Shown here piece after piece: positions 72 through 13,942 of a stretch of 29,123 nt of DNA. This DNA is from a virus. How positions within the stretch are numbered: the stretch's first letter is position 1; each line of letters opens with the position of its first letter. The translations under genes and the position numbers were made by a program. The stretch is from the IMG/VR virus record IMGVR_UViG_3300032242_000114, positions 1 through 29,123 of that record; one strand, written 5' to 3'. The notes beneath the pieces were generated by a model. The model searched no databases. It was not told the origin of the DNA and saw nothing but the letters and a program-made list of their open reading frames with translations.

Positions 72-298
72 GGTATCACCTGTAAAAATCTCTCAGCCCA
101 CTCGCGCCAGTCTACATATTGGTATGGGTTCGGAGCGACACTTTGCCACTGTTGATTAATAAGGATAACACCAACTGCCCAATTTTGCCAGTTCTCGGGG
201 CCTTCTAATTTACCAACATCGCCATATGTATTCAGGAATGGCGTCATCTTGTCGGTCCACTCCATGACTTCCATGTTTCTTGGGTCAATACCAATCAT
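68..298 (-). CDS. Small conserved phage protein downstream of gp10-like hub
   Basis: A 76-aa acidic protein rich in Trp with no signal peptide or membrane segment. It starts MIGIDPRNMEVMEWTDKM, followed by a central Trp-rich stretch and a C-terminal segment with DWREWAERF. The ATG at 298 overlaps the stop of the gp10-like gene in an ATGA arrangement, which supports translational coupling. Small proteins of this shape (start near DPRN.EV.EW, end near DWR.WAERF) are, from memory, common directly after gp10-like genes in environmental podoviruses. The function is unknown; a minor structural or assembly role is inferred from position only. Confidence 0.75.
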   Translation of the reverse strand: MIGIDPRNMEVMEWTDKMTPFLNTYGDVGKLEGPENWQNWAVGVILINQQWQSVAPNPYQYVDWREWAERFLQVIP

Positions 299-2115
299 GA
301 CTGGACTGCTCCCAACAACGTGCCATCGGCTGGCTCGACGTGTGCAAGGGAGAGGCCCATCTGGTAATCGCCACCCACCACATTGCTGCGGAATTTGAAA
401 CGCATTTCGCGGCGAATGGTTTTGAAGAACACCACTTGTTCAGGTGGAGATGTAATGCTTGGAACATCCGGGAACATCATCTCATCAGATGTGATCTCAG
501 CAGAACGCGCATTCGACCGGCCAGCCACGGAAACTGTCATCGGGCCAGATTGAACAAAGTCAGGCTCAATCAGGGTGATCCGAAGGCTTCTATTTTGGGA
601 CTGTTCTGCTGCTGCGACTGAAATGTCGCTTGTCTCAAAATAACTATCGATTGGGTTAACAAATGACCCATTCAGTTCATCGACACCATATTCATGCTGC
701 CAGAGACTATATCCCGTCAAAGATGCGACACTTACGGTAAAGTTAGTTCCCGTCCCACCAATCAGTGCAGATGAGACGGTAAGAACATCACCTACCGAAT
801 ACCCAGCCCCGCCCGAAACCAATGTGACGCTTGTAACCGAGTTTCCGGAGACGGTTACATTCAACGTAGCGCCGGAGCCGGAAATATTGGTCGTATTGAT
901 CGTTGAGACATTGTAATATGTGCCATTGGTATAGGACGATCCTCCGACAAGGGTACCAAGTGTAGCAACTACCTTGTCAGTGGTGACACCCATCATCAAT
1001 GGGTATTGGAAGACGCGAGCAAACTGACCATTACTACGCCCGCCATTAGGTAAAACAGTGTCGTACCAAGTTTGTTCACGAACATTATAAATGACAGCAC
1101 GGTCACACTCCGTCGAAGTTCCCGATGGATAGCACCACCAAATTTCACCAAAACGCGGAACCTTTGTGGCAAATACCTTTTGACGTTGAGAATAGTTCAA
1201 ATTGTCAAAAAAGTAATTGAGGTTCAGGTTATTGGGTACTTCTCTGACTACGCCATTGTAGGAAAGGAACCGGTCCAATCCGACCCAATAATAAATACCA
1301 TCATATTCAATAACGGATTGTGACGATAGGATCGACGACATATCGGAGATCGTATCGAAAGAGAACGTCGGGTTTGATCCAGCCCCCGTGCTACCGATGA
1401 ATGACATACGGATTACGCTGTCTAAGCTAAATAGAAGCGCGGAAGGTGAATTGGTTGATCCGCCTCTAGTGACAATACCGGCCACGATCTTTTGGGCTGT
1501 GACATATGCTGCGCCGCCGCCAGATACAGTAGTCCAATTGGTAGGATCGCCGGGAGCAGACCAAGCCACGAATCCATTGTTTCCATATGCCACGAGATAT
1601 GGAGCAAGCGCCATGATGCCACCAGATACTGATGGGGATGTCCCACCAAGCGGGGCAAGTGCAGTATTTACTGAAATGTCGCCGCCATAAATTTGAAAAT
1701 TGGCTGAGCTGGCAATATCATTTAAATTCGTCGCAGCATGAGCAATCAGAGCTGTCCCGGCGGTAGCTGTATCGAAGATAGCATCAAGGCTCCACATGCT
1801 ATTCGCATTTGGAACATAGGCCGCTGGCGTCCGGTCGAATACAGCAGAACCAATTCCACTTGGATCGACGGTTATTGACTGCAAAAGATTTGAGCTTCCT
1901 GATGTCGTATACAGAAGGCCATTGAGTGGGTAGGTATACATCCCCCTAGAAAGACCACTGAAACCATTGGTAATATGGCGGTATCCCCACATTTTACGTG
2001 GAAGACCGCGCTGGAACCGCACCCATTGCCCATCAACATAAAAATCTCCCTCAAACACGGTTCCATCGCGCTTGATGCCCGGTTTTGATTGAATATGAAG
2101 AGGTTTAGGCGCCAT
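295..2115 (-). CDS. P22 gp10-like tail hub / packaged-DNA stabilisation protein with inserted domain
   Basis: A 606-aa protein that looks like the P22 gp10 family, a beta-propeller-like hub that closes the portal vertex and carries the tail fibres. Supporting features are the N-terminal DGTVFEGDFYVDGQWVRFQR segment near residues 18-36, the repeated blade-like motifs (APYLVAYGNNGFVAWSAPGD near 171-190, IYYWVGLDRFLSYNG near 274-288, IWWCYP near 325-330), and the C-terminal sequence around LWQHEYGVDE. Residues about 387-468 are a Gly/Ser/Thr-rich module (GGAGYSVGDVLTV core) that interrupts the hub between YPLMMGV and YSLWQHEYG. A related module sits at the end of the preceding 511-aa protein. 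The ATG at 2115 forms a TAATG stop-start junction with that gene. Family assignment is from motif recognition; the inserted domain's function is unknown. Confidence 0.8.
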   Translation of the reverse strand: MAPKPLHIQSKPGIKRDGTVFEGDFYVDGQWVRFQRGLPRKMWGYRHITNGFSGLSRGMYTYPLNGLLYTTSGSSNLLQSITVDPSGIGSAVFDRTPAAYVPNANSMWSLDAIFDTATAGTALIAHAATNLNDIASSANFQIYGGDISVNTALAPLGGTSPSVSGGIMALAPYLVAYGNNGFVAWSAPGDPTNWTTVSGGGAAYVTAQKIVAGIVTRGGSTNSPSALLFSLDSVIRMSFIGSTGAGSNPTFSFDTISDMSSILSSQSVIEYDGIYYWVGLDRFLSYNGVVREVPNNLNLNYFFDNLNYSQRQKVFATKVPRFGEIWWCYPSGTSTECDRAVIYNVREQTWYDTVLPNGGRSNGQFARVFQYPLMMGVTTDKVVATLGTLVGGSSYTNGTYYNVSTINTTNISGSGATLNVTVSGNSVTSVTLVSGGAGYSVGDVLTVSSALIGGTGTNFTVSVASLTGYSLWQHEYGVDELNGSFVNPIDSYFETSDISVAAAEQSQNRSLRITLIEPDFVQSGPMTVSVAGRSNARSAEITSDEMMFPDVPSITSPPEQVVFFKTIRREMRFKFRSNVVGGDYQMGLSLAHVEPADGTLLGAVQS

Positions 2116-3650
2116 TAACCAAGCCCTACCGCAAAAGCTATAGCATGATTATCAGACTGGCTCGTTGAGTATACTTCAAGAGTGGCCCGGGCAGCAGCTG
2201 CTGTGATCGTCCCGACTTGGACACTAAAGCCAAGACCAGTGCCGCCAAGATAGGTATTGTTAACGGTTAGTGTATCACCAACACTGTAACCAATACCCGG
2301 ATTATTGAGTGCAATTACCGTAATAGAACCGCCAAACACTAACATATCGGCAGTCGCGCCGACGCCAGAGCCACCAACAAGCGGGATATTAAAGTAATTG
2401 CTGCTTGCGTACCCACTGCCGCCGATCAAATTGGTAAATGTGGCAATAGATGCTGGTGTCGTAAATAATGCCTGTCCAATAGCCGTGCCACCAAGATTGG
2501 TCAAAGCTTGGGTCTGAGTTACTGATTGGAAGACAGAAATACCTGTTGAGCCGCCACCAAGGTTAATAAGTGCTGCACCGGCTGTTGTCGCGCTTGTTCC
2601 GCCATTTGCAATCGAGATCGGCGTTGAGATACCAGCCGTTGCCGCGTTAACGACATTTGTACCATCACAATAAAGAATGGCGCGTGAATTTTGAGGGACA
2701 GCATAACCTGTTCCGGCTGCCGTCTTAACCGTCAGCGAGTACGATCCAGTTGTCGAATTGTCTACCCAGTATTGCTGGACGGTCGGAGGAACGATGACAA
2801 CTCGGTTGCCCGTCAAAGTACCCGTGAAACGATAGGCAATCTTATTTTGCTCAGCCGTAGATAAGGTATAATTGCCTGTTCCAGCCACTGCAATCGAGGT
2901 GTAGTTGAAAGCAAAGTTTACATTCTGGCCATAGCCAATGGTGTAGTACCCGGTGCCATCGCAAACGATGAAGCATGAGTTTGTTGGCGCAATATCTTTG
3001 GTTGCACCGCCATCAATGAAATCACTTCCAGCTGGATCGATGGTCAGTGTTCCAGTGCCTTGGTTCCTGACGCTGATAAACCAATCATTGCCTACAGATG
3101 CTGCGAGCGGCAAGGCTAAGGTTCCAACGCCACCAGTCCAAACAAGGAGCTGCGAGCGATCCGTGCTGCCAGCCGTGTAATTGCTATTGAATGATGTAAC
3201 TGACTGAGATTGGTTCAGCGTCGTGGCAATTGCCTTTATGCCGTATCCAGCAAGAGAGCCAGCTGTCGCAGATGAAACTCCAGCGCCATATTGAAGGACT
3301 TGCCAGACACCGTTCGCAGTCGTGTTATCCGTGACATACACTTGCCAGAGAAGCCCAGAGGCAACCGACATAATGGTATTACCGCCAGCATCGCGGACAG
3401 TGAAGGCTACGGTTCCCACGTTATTGAATAGGATCGTCTGGCCCTGTGATGCCAACGCTGCGGATGGCAAGAAGACACTGCGCCCACCAGAAGTGCAGTT
3501 CACATCAATAATGCTGGCAGCAATATTTGTGGACGGAACAGTCTCCAGCGGCCACTGGAGAACGACATCTTGAGTGTTTAAGTCAACAGCAAAATACGAT
3601 ACCTGACTTGGGTAAACCGTTGAGCCGCCAAATACTTCTGTATAACTCAT
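2115..3650 (-). CDS. Beta-rich virion structural protein, C-terminal module shared with the gp10-like protein
   Basis: A 511-aa Thr/Ser/Gly-rich protein with no charged helical regions, typical of a virion surface or fibre-like protein. I choose the ATG at 3650 (MSYTEVFGGSTVYPSQ) because a GAGG ribosome-binding site lies six bases upstream and it lies just past the stop of the previous gene; the longer reading from 3683 would need a TTG and overlap that gene. Residues in the first half contain repeated beta motifs such as NDWFISVRNQGTGTLTIDPAG. The C-terminal roughly 80 residues before the last 26 (about 2190-2430) carry the GGSGY...GIGYSVGDTLTV module also inserted in the downstream gp10-like hub. 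Position suggests a tail or fibre attachment component; exact role unknown. Confidence 0.7.
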   Translation of the reverse strand: MSYTEVFGGSTVYPSQVSYFAVDLNTQDVVLQWPLETVPSTNIAASIIDVNCTSGGRSVFLPSAALASQGQTILFNNVGTVAFTVRDAGGNTIMSVASGLLWQVYVTDNTTANGVWQVLQYGAGVSSATAGSLAGYGIKAIATTLNQSQSVTSFNSNYTAGSTDRSQLLVWTGGVGTLALPLAASVGNDWFISVRNQGTGTLTIDPAGSDFIDGGATKDIAPTNSCFIVCDGTGYYTIGYGQNVNFAFNYTSIAVAGTGNYTLSTAEQNKIAYRFTGTLTGNRVVIVPPTVQQYWVDNSTTGSYSLTVKTAAGTGYAVPQNSRAILYCDGTNVVNAATAGISTPISIANGGTSATTAGAALINLGGGSTGISVFQSVTQTQALTNLGGTAIGQALFTTPASIATFTNLIGGSGYASSNYFNIPLVGGSGVGATADMLVFGGSITVIALNNPGIGYSVGDTLTVNNTYLGGTGLGFSVQVGTITAAAARATLEVYSTSQSDNHAIAFAVGLG

Positions 3651-3651
3651 A

Positions 3652-4314
3652 TTAAGCCTCGGCTCTGGTTGTGCTGCGGTCAACGATGCGCTTCAGGTCT
3701 TCCTGATTGATTGCATTTACAGCTTCTGAATAGAACTGTTTCCAAACAGGAATACGTTCGTCATTCTTCAAGAATGGAGTAGCTTCCAATAGCGCACCAT
3801 AAAGGATCAATTGCGGAGCGTATTCTGTAATCCAATTGGTTTGGTTCGAATCGCTCAAGAGCGCAGGAAGCTCGTAATACAAAATCTCGATTGGATAATT
3901 CTGATCCGGTGTCGGGCAGATAATCCAATTGTTGTAATTGTAATCAGCGTAAAATTTGGGCTGGTCCGTCTGTGATTCGTCAGGCCAATAATTCCGAACA
4001 TACTCATAACTGCGCGGAAAGATTGGTGTGCGGACGGTATTGTTTGAACCAGCGCCAAAGTTGAGTGAGATCGTGGTTCTCCACCGATCAGGCTTTGGGT
4101 ATACCGATACGCCAGTCTCCAGCGTTGTCGTCACTGCAACGATGAAGCCCTCGATCTTGAGATCGGCAATAATGCGGCGCTCAGCGAGAGTAATGAGGCG
4201 AGGTATCTGCTGATAGACGATTGGGTCAACCGCAGCCGAAGCACCGCGCTCCAGATAATTCTGGATGTCGGTTTGCAGCTCGTTGAAAGTCATACCAGTT
4301 TGTGAGGTCGCCAT
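3652..4314 (-). CDS. Head-tail adaptor-like protein
   Basis: A 220-aa protein starting MATSQTGMTFNELQTDIQNY. The pattern of an N-terminal helix, IPRLITLAERRIIADLKIEG near residues 37-56, a central beta region with YP.PDRWRTT, and a helical C-terminus with YGALLEATPFLKNDERI and a WKQFYSEAVNAIN helix is what I know from phage adaptor proteins that form a ring under the portal (gp6/gp4-type fold). It lies between the lysozyme gene and the 511-aa structural protein. The ATG at 4314 is four bases past the lysozyme stop. A separate gp4-like protein occurs at 13939-14994, so the phage may use two adaptor rings. The family call is moderately sure; assembly role is inferred. Confidence 0.65.
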   Translation of the reverse strand: MATSQTGMTFNELQTDIQNYLERGASAAVDPIVYQQIPRLITLAERRIIADLKIEGFIVAVTTTLETGVSVYPKPDRWRTTISLNFGAGSNNTVRTPIFPRSYEYVRNYWPDESQTDQPKFYADYNYNNWIICPTPDQNYPIEILYYELPALLSDSNQTNWITEYAPQLILYGALLEATPFLKNDERIPVWKQFYSEAVNAINQEDLKRIVDRSTTRAEA

Positions 4315-4318
4315 TTAC

Positions 4319-4855
4319 CTATCCGGTCATGCTGATTGCGGTCTTTTCAACCGATGCAACTCGGTTCCCCCATGTTGTACCATATCTATTCCAATCTGGC
4401 AGCCCCTGCAAAAAGGTAAGCCGATAATTGCAGAGCTTCCGAATCAGATCGCGGTCATCGGCGGCTTTGATAGCGCCAATCGTTTGAGCGCCCATGACAC
4501 CATCCGCTGTGACATCAAGGTTCATCTGCAAGAACCGTATGGCACGGCCAACACCAGAATTGACCGCCAAGTCGTACAGAGCATAATCCAAGCCCTCTGG
4601 AAGCTCGCTACACCGGCATGAGGCCCAGAAATTCTTGCGGTACAGCGGCTCAATATCGGCCGGAGTTAACGCTTTCATCTCATCGTGGGTTACTTGCTTA
4701 CCAACCCATGCTTCCCAAGTGGCTTGGGTTACGCCCATATTGGTACTTCCGGGGCGACCATCGGGGAGACGGTTGCCCTTGTCATGCTGATCGTCCTGAA
4801 AACCGCCTTCAGTTTTCAGGACGAGATTAAAGCATTGTTCGAAATTGTCGCTCAT
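4319..4855 (-). CDS. Endolysin: GH108 muramidase with C-terminal peptidoglycan-binding region
   Basis: A 178-aa cytoplasmic lysozyme expected to cut the glycan strands of peptidoglycan at lysis. The N-terminal glycoside hydrolase 108 domain shows the catalytic Glu16 in LVLKTEGGFQDD and the characteristic GSTNMGVT at 36-43 (G.T..GVT). The second half has YALYDLAVNSGVGRAIRFLQ at 91-110 and a TADGVMGAQT segment at 116-125, matching the peptidoglycan-binding half usually fused to GH108 enzymes. The length is usual for the family. No signal peptide is seen, so export depends on a holin. The ATG overlaps the stop of the 3TM holin gene (ATGA), which places it in a lysis operon. Confidence 0.92.
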   Translation of the reverse strand: MSDNFEQCFNLVLKTEGGFQDDQHDKGNRLPDGRPGSTNMGVTQATWEAWVGKQVTHDEMKALTPADIEPLYRKNFWASCRCSELPEGLDYALYDLAVNSGVGRAIRFLQMNLDVTADGVMGAQTIGAIKAADDRDLIRKLCNYRLTFLQGLPDWNRYGTTWGNRVASVEKTAISMTG

Positions 4856-6161: not shown

Positions 6162-7235
6162 TTAAGGGTGGGTGGCTTTATATGCTTCGAACTTGGCGTC
6201 AAGCTCTTGGATGGCTGCGACGAGAAGTGGGATAACTTCTGAATAGCGAACGCTTAGATTGCCATTAGAATCTGTGTCTATTACTTCTGGCAACACTTTT
6301 TGAAGGTCTTGAGCGATCAATCCAACTTGCGGTTTATTGGTATCATCTGATTTCCAAGTAAATTCAGCCGCCCGTAGGGTGGTAAGTTTTTTCAATCCTT
6401 CTTGAATAGTGCCAGTGATATTTTTAAGATTTTCGTCAGAAGTTCCAGACCAAGAAGTAGCTTGTGCAGGTAAATAAACACCCGCGAAATTTGAACCGTT
6501 TTGAACAAGAAAAGAACCCGTCCCTGATTGCGGACCAAAAGACCAATAAGATGTTCCATATCCAGAACCAAATTGGGCTGAATTATAGGGAGAAGTTGTT
6601 GTCGCGTATAAAAATCTGCCGGAGGAGTCGATACGCATGGCTTCGGAAGAACCGGAATTTATTGAAAACTGTAATGTGTTTCCGGTTGTTACATATATTT
6701 GTGGGCCACCGTTATTGAACTGAAGAACGGGATTTCCAGCGGAAAACCTAATATTTCCAGAAACGTCTAACTTAGCACCCGGCGAACTCGTCCCAATACC
6801 TACGTTGCCGGAGGAGTCGATACGCATACGTTCAGAGCCGTTTGCAGAAAGCAATATTCCGCCAGCAGCTCTATTATTTATTCCTGCGTTATTTGAGTTG
6901 TCTTGGTATAGATCAAAGGATGTTGATAAGTAAGAATTTCCATTTCCTGCTAACCAAAGCCAAGACGTATTACCCGATGAAGATTTAATACCTACGGTAC
7001 TAGCGCCAGCACTGTTGTTAATTTCTAATTTAGCGCCCGGAGAAATGCTCCCAATACCCACATTCTGCGAAGCATCTATATACACAGCATTAACACCCGC
7101 CGTGGATAACCCAAGCGTCGTGCTGGATGGGAAATACAAGCCCGTGTTGGATGACGTGGTATTGCTCTCAGAGGGGGCTGCTGCTGAGCCAAGGACGTTC
7201 TGAATGCCCGTGGAGCCGTTTAGGGTGATAGCCAT
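6162..7235 (-). CDS. Tail fibre/spike protein with C-terminal S74 self-cleaving intramolecular chaperone
   Basis: A 357-aa fibre protein. The first 260 residues are Ser/Gly/Asn-rich with collagen-like fibre repeats (SSGNVGIGTSSPGAKLDVSG near 141-160 and a diverged copy QNVGIGSISPGAKLEI near 57-72). Residues from about 263 to the end are a peptidase S74 intramolecular chaperone: SDENLKNI carries the Ser266/Lys271 pair (five apart, as in the K1F endosialidase chaperone), followed by AAEFTWK, QVGLIAQDLQKVLPEVI and a terminal coiled-coil VIPLLVAAIQELDAKFEAYK. In this family the domain drives trimer folding and then cuts itself off at the Ser. The mature fibre would therefore be about 265 residues. 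It shares repeat segments with the upstream 279-aa fibre gene. Confidence 0.85.
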   Translation of the reverse strand: MAITLNGSTGIQNVLGSAAAPSESNTTSSNTGLYFPSSTTLGLSTAGVNAVYIDASQNVGIGSISPGAKLEINNSAGASTVGIKSSSGNTSWLWLAGNGNSYLSTSFDLYQDNSNNAGINNRAAGGILLSANGSERMRIDSSGNVGIGTSSPGAKLDVSGNIRFSAGNPVLQFNNGGPQIYVTTGNTLQFSINSGSSEAMRIDSSGRFLYATTTSPYNSAQFGSGYGTSYWSFGPQSGTGSFLVQNGSNFAGVYLPAQATSWSGTSDENLKNITGTIQEGLKKLTTLRAAEFTWKSDDTNKPQVGLIAQDLQKVLPEVIDTDSNGNLSVRYSEVIPLLVAAIQELDAKFEAYKATHP

Positions 7236-13405: not shown

Positions 13406-13942
13406 TTAAATCTCCATTTGCATTGTAATGGTTGCTTTTCTTGACGCAACACGTTTTGCAATATGCTCAGGAGATTGTTTGAATCCTTTCCGAGAGGCAG
13501 ACATTTTTGCCCTAGTTTCTTCAGATGCTTTTGAGCCAGCCGTTGCAGGTGTCCGACCAAGCATCCATGGGGTTTGCCTTGGAACGCCTTTTAATGGGCT
13601 AACATAATCTTTACCACGCGGCTTAGAAACTGGTGGTTTTGAGCCACCTACATTACAATTCCAGCCAATTAATGATTTTGGCCTAAATTTTGTTTCCATT
13701 TCATAGCAATATTCTTCAGTTCCAATGATTAAAACTTCTTTAATAAGAGAATCCCAACCATATTTTTGAATAGCATTAAAAAATATTGGATTTTCAATTT
13801 GCTTTTTTGATGATTTCCAAAAATGCAACTTCCATCTTACTGTTGGATTCTTTGAAACACCAATATAGCCATCAGATAAAACATCGGTATGATGCTTTAA
13901 TTTAATCCAATAAACGCAACATTGGCCATTTTTTAATTTCAT
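13406..13942 (-). CDS. GIY-YIG homing endonuclease with NUMOD3 DNA-binding motif
   Basis: A 178-aa free-standing mobile endonuclease. The N-terminal GIY-YIG nuclease shows the paired strands CVYWIKLK (8-15) and DGYIGVSKNPTVRWKLH (24-40) with the expected Arg at 36, then FFNAIQKYGWDSLIKEVLI at 54-72 and NVGG at 97-100. The C-terminal half holds a NUMOD3-type motif, SEETRAKMSASRKGFKQSP (140-158), which binds DNA in such enzymes. Its DNA is visibly richer in A+T than the neighbours, a sign of transfer. It overlaps the stop of the gp4-like gene by four bases, so it inserted without breaking flanking frames. It likely cuts a phage lacking it at this site and spreads by repair. Confidence 0.9.
   Translation of the reverse strand: MKLKNGQCCVYWIKLKHHTDVLSDGYIGVSKNPTVRWKLHFWKSSKKQIENPIFFNAIQKYGWDSLIKEVLIIGTEEYCYEMETKFRPKSLIGWNCNVGGSKPPVSKPRGKDYVSPLKGVPRQTPWMLGRTPATAGSKASEETRAKMSASRKGFKQSPEHIAKRVASRKATITMQMEI

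Follow-up and report, generated by a model that had tools for sequence, protein, structure and literature searches.

One homologous module inserted in the tail hub and in the adjacent fiber-like protein of an uncultured phage

Introduction

In short phage tails, the hub is usually regarded as belonging to the conserved core. The window, by which we mean the whole stretch of DNA analyzed here (an IMG/VR virus record of 29,123 bases from an uncultured phage), encodes a hub whose later part appears to be interrupted, and a segment much like the interrupting one is found near the end of the protein encoded next to it. The locus therefore raises three linked questions: whether the segment is foreign to the hub, how two neighboring virion proteins came to share it, and what such a piece would do on a phage tail.

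Results and Discussion

Tail genes of the window

The hub belongs to a run of three tail genes on the minus strand, listed here in order of transcription:

3652-4314, minus strand: adaptor protein, 220 aa, upstream of the fiber gene; PF24175 SU10_adaptor, E 8.6e-27, over the cut-off
2115-3650, minus strand: fiber-like protein P0002, 511 aa; phrog_12796 tail fiber, E 5.6e-8, residues 248-421
295-2115, minus strand: tail hub (nozzle) protein P0001, 606 aa; phrog_3287 virion structural protein, E 8e-34

An adaptor of the SU10_adaptor type, encoded two genes upstream of the hub gene, is as expected of the same tail type. P0002 is similar in sequence to annotated tail fibers, both those of phrog_12796 and a homologue annotated as tail fiber in Caulobacter phage GB2A. 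No Pfam family came over the cut-off for the hub, the fiber-like protein, or the 1105-aa protein of the window, and an NCBIfam search returned nothing of note. Three relatives of the hub are found in bacterial genome contigs, all in MAGs, and we infer no host from them.

Other genes of the minus strand encode an endolysin of the glycosyl hydrolase 108 family (4319-4855; PF05838, E 1e-24), a tail fiber with a C-terminal Peptidase_S74 intramolecular chaperone (6162-7235; PF13884, E 5e-12) and, between structural genes, a probable homing endonuclease (13406-13942; phrog_314, E 2e-22, with weak GIY-YIG and NUMOD3 matches).

The hub as a propeller nozzle

We modeled the hub with AF2 (mean pLDDT, 85.6) and compared the model with solved structures. 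In VIA-align, it matched 9nwi_Y (Pa223) with a Z of 30.0 (458 residues), 8zkk_O with 27.6, SU10 with about 27, and P22 gp10 (8eap_D) with 24.1 (422 residues). The hubs of SU10 and phiCrAss001 gave Z values of 24 to 28 against it, with solved hubs aligning over the whole of the model, and T7 gp12 matched it in Foldseek with an E of 6e-11. The first-pass annotation had called this protein a gp10-like hub, and rightly so, since the model matches solved nozzle and hub proteins from end to end. As modeled, the window hub is a propeller nozzle of the T7 gp12/P22 gp10 type. Among the papers listed in literature searches, none dealt with VP1 or with the tail of Pa223 itself.

The segment under study, which we call M, is predicted in the hub model to form an antiparallel beta domain with a short helix. 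Its first and last strands continue a hairpin of the hub (371-390 and 460-474), so that, in the model, M lengthens a late hairpin of the propeller. The corresponding features are as follows:

985-1005, minus strand: hub strand 371-377, leading into the insert; in the DSSP assignment of the model, strand 371-390 spans hub and M
712-984, minus strand: inserted module M in the hub, residues ~378-468, absent from insert-less homologues; HMM score, 90.0 bits
718-969, minus strand: core of M in the hub, residues 383-466
694-711, minus strand: hub strand 469-474 (YSLWQH), which follows the insert; in the DSSP assignment, strand 460-474

Two copies of one module

A BLASTP comparison of hub and fiber-like protein gave one strong segment, hub residues 378-463 against fiber residues 397-479, with 38 of 86 residues identical (44%; E, 2e-13). 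Global alignment of the two copies scored 187.5, whereas 2000 shuffles averaged 33 and reached at most 83.5 (Z, 15). Predicted secondary structure carries the same letter at 73 of 85 paired residues, a comparison of letters and not of superposed coordinates. The fiber copy, modeled separately, had block-mean pLDDT values of at least 94 over model residues 21-100. Among the open frames of at least 60 residues in the window, a module HMM, whose training set included both window copies, found exactly two places, one in the hub and one in the fiber.

Hub residues ~378-468 and fiber residues 402-482 are thus one homologous module of ~82 residues. The first-pass annotation had proposed that the adjacent 511-aa protein carries the same module as the hub, and both the sequence comparison and the agreement, not divergence, of the predicted secondary structures bear this out. 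The two halves of M also resemble each other (hhalign E, 5e-5), and M may therefore have arisen by internal duplication.

The domain is inserted in the hub

We scored hub homologues for the content of the hairpin. Our first set held 84 homologues, the best 80 of at least 597 viral-contig relatives together with four from phage records. Addition of a fiber scan (best 80 of 245 relatives) brought the number of distinct hubs of at least 450 aa to 127. The hairpin was scored as empty in 46 of these (including two hubs that are unaligned and one that is partial at the site). The remaining hubs hold a triple short repeat (n=39), M (n=36), or other domains of ~100 residues (n=6) there. In insert-less hubs, the equivalents of V377 and Y469 are joined by few residues, for example, PILTGVKQEGGTYKMWQHE in the reference hub L059. 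Caulobacter phage GB2A has an insert-less hub of this family too, and none of five matching records of cultured phages shows an M-type module in the hub.

Because hub homologues without M exist, M in the hub is an inserted domain. The first-pass annotation had said as much, and had suggested a search for gp10-like homologues lacking the insert; intact hubs with nothing of M at the site are what that search found. Its insert was real, but its start was misplaced: since the short turn of insert-less homologues joins V377 and Y469, the extent of 387-468 (712-957) is corrected to ~378-468 (712-984). That M belongs to the normal hub fold we reject with near certainty. In its favor is only the presence of M in all complete hubs of the window's own lineage; the empty hubs speak against it, and the M profile has no convincing match to solved chains even though solved hubs align with the whole hub model.

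The other contents of the hairpin are also distinct. The triple repeat, of the R-I-T-E-A-G-D-x type (L009-L035 and others), occurs in three copies in 39 of 39 hubs, with a spacing of 8 residues for 75 of 78 intervals; these hubs are related and do not make 39 independent cases. Gene families restricted to the triple-repeat class, such as a 628-aa family in 14 loci, are likewise confounded by kinship. The six other domains fall into two sequence types (L036, L043, and L049 versus L127, L130, and L154). On a quick-method tree of 123 hub cores, built without the site, the state of the hairpin changes at least 9 times; L124, L111, L158, and L054 were left out of this tree as truncated or unaligned at the site.

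Inserts also occur elsewhere in these hubs. Twenty-five hubs have one after residue 99, and in two of them (L109 and L113) it is a third domain type that resembles, by eye, the hairpin insert of L127, L130, and L154. The hairpin insert of L386 and L387 is of yet another kind.

The module in the fiber-like protein

The fiber-like protein consists of a conserved N-terminal part, a stalk repeat, M, and a tail. The N-terminal ~370-390 residues are the conserved ones, with residues 3-374 or more matched in the best 80 of 245 relatives. The parts after it are as follows:

2451-2618, minus strand: stalk repeats (IANGGTSATTAG..., GGTAIGQALFTTPAS), the site of the M insertion; in L102 and L107, stalk passes to tail without M
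2205-2447, minus strand: module M in the fiber, residues 402-482; HMM score, 87.0 bits; modeled separately
2118-2204, minus strand: C-terminal tail that follows M, residues 483-511; the fibers of L102 and L107, which lack M, end similarly

We aligned 112 distinct fiber sequences, without homologues that were shorter than 300 aa, on the other strand, or less than 45% identical. In this alignment, the stalk of the M-less fibers runs on to a similar tail, and the fiber of L100 has two repeat units, each ending in M. Of the 153 loci with both fiber and hub, 152 have the two directly side by side, and only L019 departs from this.

M is carried by the fiber in 26 of 154 fiber-homologue loci (a few contigs stand under two locus ids). 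In 23 of the 26, the hub is long enough to tell, and all 23 have M in the hub as well; in L095, L096, and L099 the hub is cut off. The reverse does not hold, as L003, L102, and L107 have M in the hub and not in the fiber. These three loci count against the suggestion of the first-pass annotation that both copies bind the same partner.

Three sites for inserts, and nesting

Three further scans (best 80 each of 344, 599, and 350 relatives) enlarged the set to 303 distinct hubs. It is without L124, L111, L158, L054, and the distant L083 and L084, and without new hubs open at the 3' end or shorter than 480 aa; for earlier hubs the lower limit was 450 aa, and some of these are open-ended. Several contigs stand under two locus ids, as with L001 and L088. 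Of the 303 hubs, 157 contain M. This count depends on the queries, since M is present in three of the four used for hubs, and counts per site are not natural frequencies. In the numbering of insert-less L059, M sits after residue 86 (n=64), after residue 155 (n=1), or at residue 372/375 (n=93), which is the window's site. L312 is the single hub with two copies. Among the 303 distinct hubs, the 64 with M after residue 86 carry neither M nor any other insert at the hairpin.

Closely related hubs differ in these inserts. L187 and L232 differ in M at the first site with 89.0% core identity, and L045 and L312 differ in M at the second site with 89.2%, L312 having gained a further module around M. 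At the window's site, the closest pair differing in M is L256 and L320 (77.9% core identity), in which M is swapped for another insert. The second-site M of L312 has its nearest relatives (55%) among first-site copies from other hubs; the hairpin copy of L312 itself is less similar.

The further module is of a type that we call 'TGIPxxTTV' after its motif. In the examples read, it is the kind of insert at the second site; it surrounds M in L312 and in L062-type hubs, and in L320 it occupies the hairpin alone, without M. Among hairpin inserts with M, 26 of 93 are at least 120 residues long, enough for an extra unit; in the long ones read by eye (L062, L066, L067, L069, L072, and L077, of which L067 and L069 share one sequence), M lies inside a module of this type. 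An insert at residue ~155 recurs in 135 of the 303 hubs (L061-L064, L066-L069, L072, L077, L082, and others), 111 of them with a GIP-like motif under a loose pattern. Those that were read are of the 'VxGTGIPxxTTV...VTLSNAATASGTVTxTF' type.

Relatives of the module in other phages

Searches with a diverse set of 20 members showed M to be widespread. The set matched 20 PHROG families at an E of 0.01, and all those with a named function are virion parts. Each of the 20 members matches phrog_5342 (tail fiber), phrog_6005, phrog_32294, and phrog_438 (baseplate wedge). The best E to phrog_5342 was 1.9e-14, and the hub M of the window reached 4.9e-7 over residues 9-78 of 84; sequence homology to a cyanophage virion module thus extends over most of the length of M. 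Eight positions are invariant in the 20 members (G10, Y13, Y18, G31, G54, Y57, G74, and F77), and none of the members had a Pfam match over the cut-off.

A tblastn search of phage records with the fiber copy found 47 records, 46 of which bear the name of a Synechococcus or Prochlorococcus phage; the hub copy found nothing at an E of 0.001. In six cyanophage genomes, chosen because they match the fiber copy, the M profile gave 8, 16, 18, 22, 27, and 31 matches at an E of up to 10 and 6 to 20 each at 0.001, some of them part-length. The genomes of SU10 and GB2A gave no match at an E of up to 10. Foldseek against predicted viral proteins returned 21 matches under an E of 0.001, the named ones being from cyanophages or uncultured phages and several of them called tail or structural proteins.

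Among solved structures, the nearest candidate is domain I of the T4 sheath protein gp18. The M profile found only chance-like matches among PDB sequences (antibody light chains, E 0.12 or worse), and Foldseek of M against the PDB gave nothing significant (best E, 1.8). The top VIA match of the M model, a weak one, was T4 gp18 99-188 (Z, 4.5; rmsd, 2.8 Å; 72 residues; 18% identity), followed by EF-Tu-type domains at Z 3.0 to 3.7, in a range (Z under 8) that may reflect a common arrangement only. Ig-like folds were missing from the list, an absence that excludes nothing. In the T4 genome, the M profile had a single match at an E of up to 10, and it fell at the start of gp18 domain I (E, 0.023); it is short, covering 19 of 81 positions (20 columns in hhalign).

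The Pfam family of this domain, PF22639 (Gp18_dom_I), is weak on 2 of the 20 M members (best E, 0.052, below the 27-bit cut-off). It had no match in the window at an E of up to 10 and none in the records of eight relatives. Three of the six cyanophages match it below the cut-off, and in two of them the places overlap M in half-domain register; 2 of 14 control genomes match below the cut-off too, so that such weak matches mean little alone. We conclude that M is probably a distant relation of gp18 domain I and not a member of PF22639.

Origin of the two copies and rate of change

The first-pass annotation took the shared module to suggest transfer between the two genes. Recent copying is excluded, as the window's two copies are 47% identical in DNA (44% in residues) and their longest exact shared run is 7 bases. 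What stands is compatibility with an old common origin. In our careful tree of M, the fiber copies of the window's lineage, L103 excepted, group with its hub copies (support, 88/92), and a test of the lineage's hub and fiber copies as one clade gave an AU p of 0.355, on few columns and with many open forks. The fiber copies alone are not supported as one group in this tree (3 changes; p 0.2). A placement of the fiber copies with distant hubs, which a quick tree and plain identities had indicated, fails in the careful tree.

An old common source of the hub and fiber copies is therefore possible, judging from these sequences. Whether it lay in direct copying between these two adjacent genes is another matter, and we regard this as doubtful. 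The grouping in the tree agrees with it, as does the presence of a hub copy in every locus with a fiber copy where the hub can be judged. The age of any such event has been noted, and by plain identity the fiber copies are nearer to M of distant hubs (54-75%) than to that of their own hub (43-54%; 13 comparable pairs). Moreover, M is also carried by other virion proteins of phages, so donors other than these two genes are possible.

Comparison with five close relatives shows that M changes faster than most of its flanks. In the hub, M is 77-86% identical to that of the window, against 92-94% for residues 1-377 and 88-94% for residues 469-606. In the fiber, the values are 57-82% for M and 88-90% for residues 1-385. 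The 29-residue fiber tail varies as well, with 72-79% identity across these five pairs, so fast change is not special to M. In L088 and L089, fiber M is 57-59% identical to that of the window and residues 1-385 are 88-89% identical, reflecting either faster change or a module swap in the fiber.

Possible role of the module

We think it fairly probable that M is a self-contained beta domain of ~82 residues that acts as an exposed, variable plug-in on virion proteins of many tailed phages, a function that we infer. In the model, its first and last strands are neighbors and continue the hub hairpin, so that a tight turn could take up M with no more than a longer hairpin. The window hub would have received M in this way at its last propeller hairpin; the neighboring fiber would have received it in its stalk, either independently or in an ancient event. 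Because the hub hairpin is formed by the propeller strands that come last ahead of the C-terminal platform, M would stand on the outer side of the hub ring, presumably in six copies per ring, going by the monomer model and the analogy with solved nozzles. Recombination would be the means of its spread, and M may serve variable contacts with the host surface or another appendage and not the DNA channel. As relatives without M are common, no function that it may have is essential.

Alternatively, the hub hairpin could be the edge of the nozzle at which fibers or appendages dock, with M one of several exchangeable docking elements. The fiber dock of T7 gp12 is described as lying on the outer surface where the propeller ends (PMC6702177), and the SU10 short-fiber dock as a loop of blade 1 with Trp839, Trp847, and Trp857 for a trimeric fiber (PMC9509320). 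The window's insert comes 28 residues after conserved W350, and Trp839 comes 25 residues after the equivalent W814. The triple repeat, present throughout one hub class with its spacing of 8, recalls the three tryptophans (spacing 8 and 10). SU10 likewise has its fiber gene ahead of its nozzle gene, and the window's adaptor belongs to the SU10 family.

However, the fiber family accompanies every hairpin class (no insert, 47 of 50 loci; triple repeat, 37 of 41; M, 42 of 42; other, 6 of 6), and the neighboring fibers mostly share their N-terminal motif across these classes. The hairpin insert thus does not decide the docking of the neighboring fiber. The fiber profile also has no match to the SU10 short fiber gp16 (E, 0.26). 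The equivalence with the SU10 loop was drawn from spacing and the paper's description; the hmmsearch alignment ends near the conserved TW, before the loop, and one reading by eye took the SU10 loop to be a neighboring loop instead. Because the fiber is present in all hairpin classes, mostly with one N-terminal motif, and does not match the SU10 short fiber, we favor an exposed accessory module over a docking element, which we judge unlikely.

We think it improbable that M is neutral decoration, persisting because loops tolerate it and without a selected function. Many relatives lack M, and its sequence diverges more quickly than most of what surrounds it, which could reflect relaxed constraint without a binding role. 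Against this, its glycines and tyrosines are conserved, as is F77 among the eight invariant positions, and it recurs in virion proteins of very different phages.

A further, speculative scheme, to which we give little credence, would make the last propeller hairpin an interchangeable appendage socket. The 8-residue triplet would seat the chains of a trimeric fiber one per repeat, as the SU10 tryptophans do; elsewhere, the socket would hold a nomadic barrel domain, the distant cousin of T4 sheath domain I, or further domain types. The hub would then be refitted by plug-in swaps, even nested ones, with the DNA channel untouched.

Significance and comparison with known systems

The exposed accessory module that we favor belongs to a style of tail evolution by plug-ins that is clear here but essentially known. 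Extra domains in nozzle loops have been described, to go by the portions of the literature available to us, as Ig-like nozzle domains in SU10, as IG1 and IG2 in crAss phages such as phiCrAss001, and as the fiber dock and nozzle tip in T7. Sharing of homologous domains among unrelated phage tail proteins is also known in general (Smug et al. 2023, PMC10684548); the term "tail hub" occurs 0 times in the main text of that paper, judged by that term alone. In the titles and starts of abstracts listed in our searches, M is not named, which is no proof that it lacks a name. The hub with three sockets, the nesting of module within module, and the probable link to gp18 domain I are likewise unnamed in that literature, and we make no claim that they are unpublished.

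These hubs form a family with fixed loops at which whole domains come and go, at two of the loops between cores that are 89% identical. Hub pairs differing in M are ready-made natural pairs for asking what plug-ins do. The relatives of M also provide a testable link between a module recurrent in cyanophages, without a Pfam match over the cut-off in 20 members, and a solved T4 domain.

The propeller hub itself is common to the window and to SU10 gp17, T7 gp12, and phiCrAss001 gp44. Those three have Ig-like, jelly-roll, barrel, or crass-fold domains as inserts, and we do not equate their loops residue by residue with those of the window. T4 gp18 domain I is a six-stranded barrel with a helix, exposed and inserted in another domain, according to the portion of PMC3004832 available to us, and M too is an inserted domain, as insert-less hubs and fibers show. 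In T4-like cyanophages, M is recurrent in long open frames, the best matches lying in frames of ~500-4500 residues, whereas in the window it stands singly in the hub and singly in the fiber of a T7/P22-type tail.
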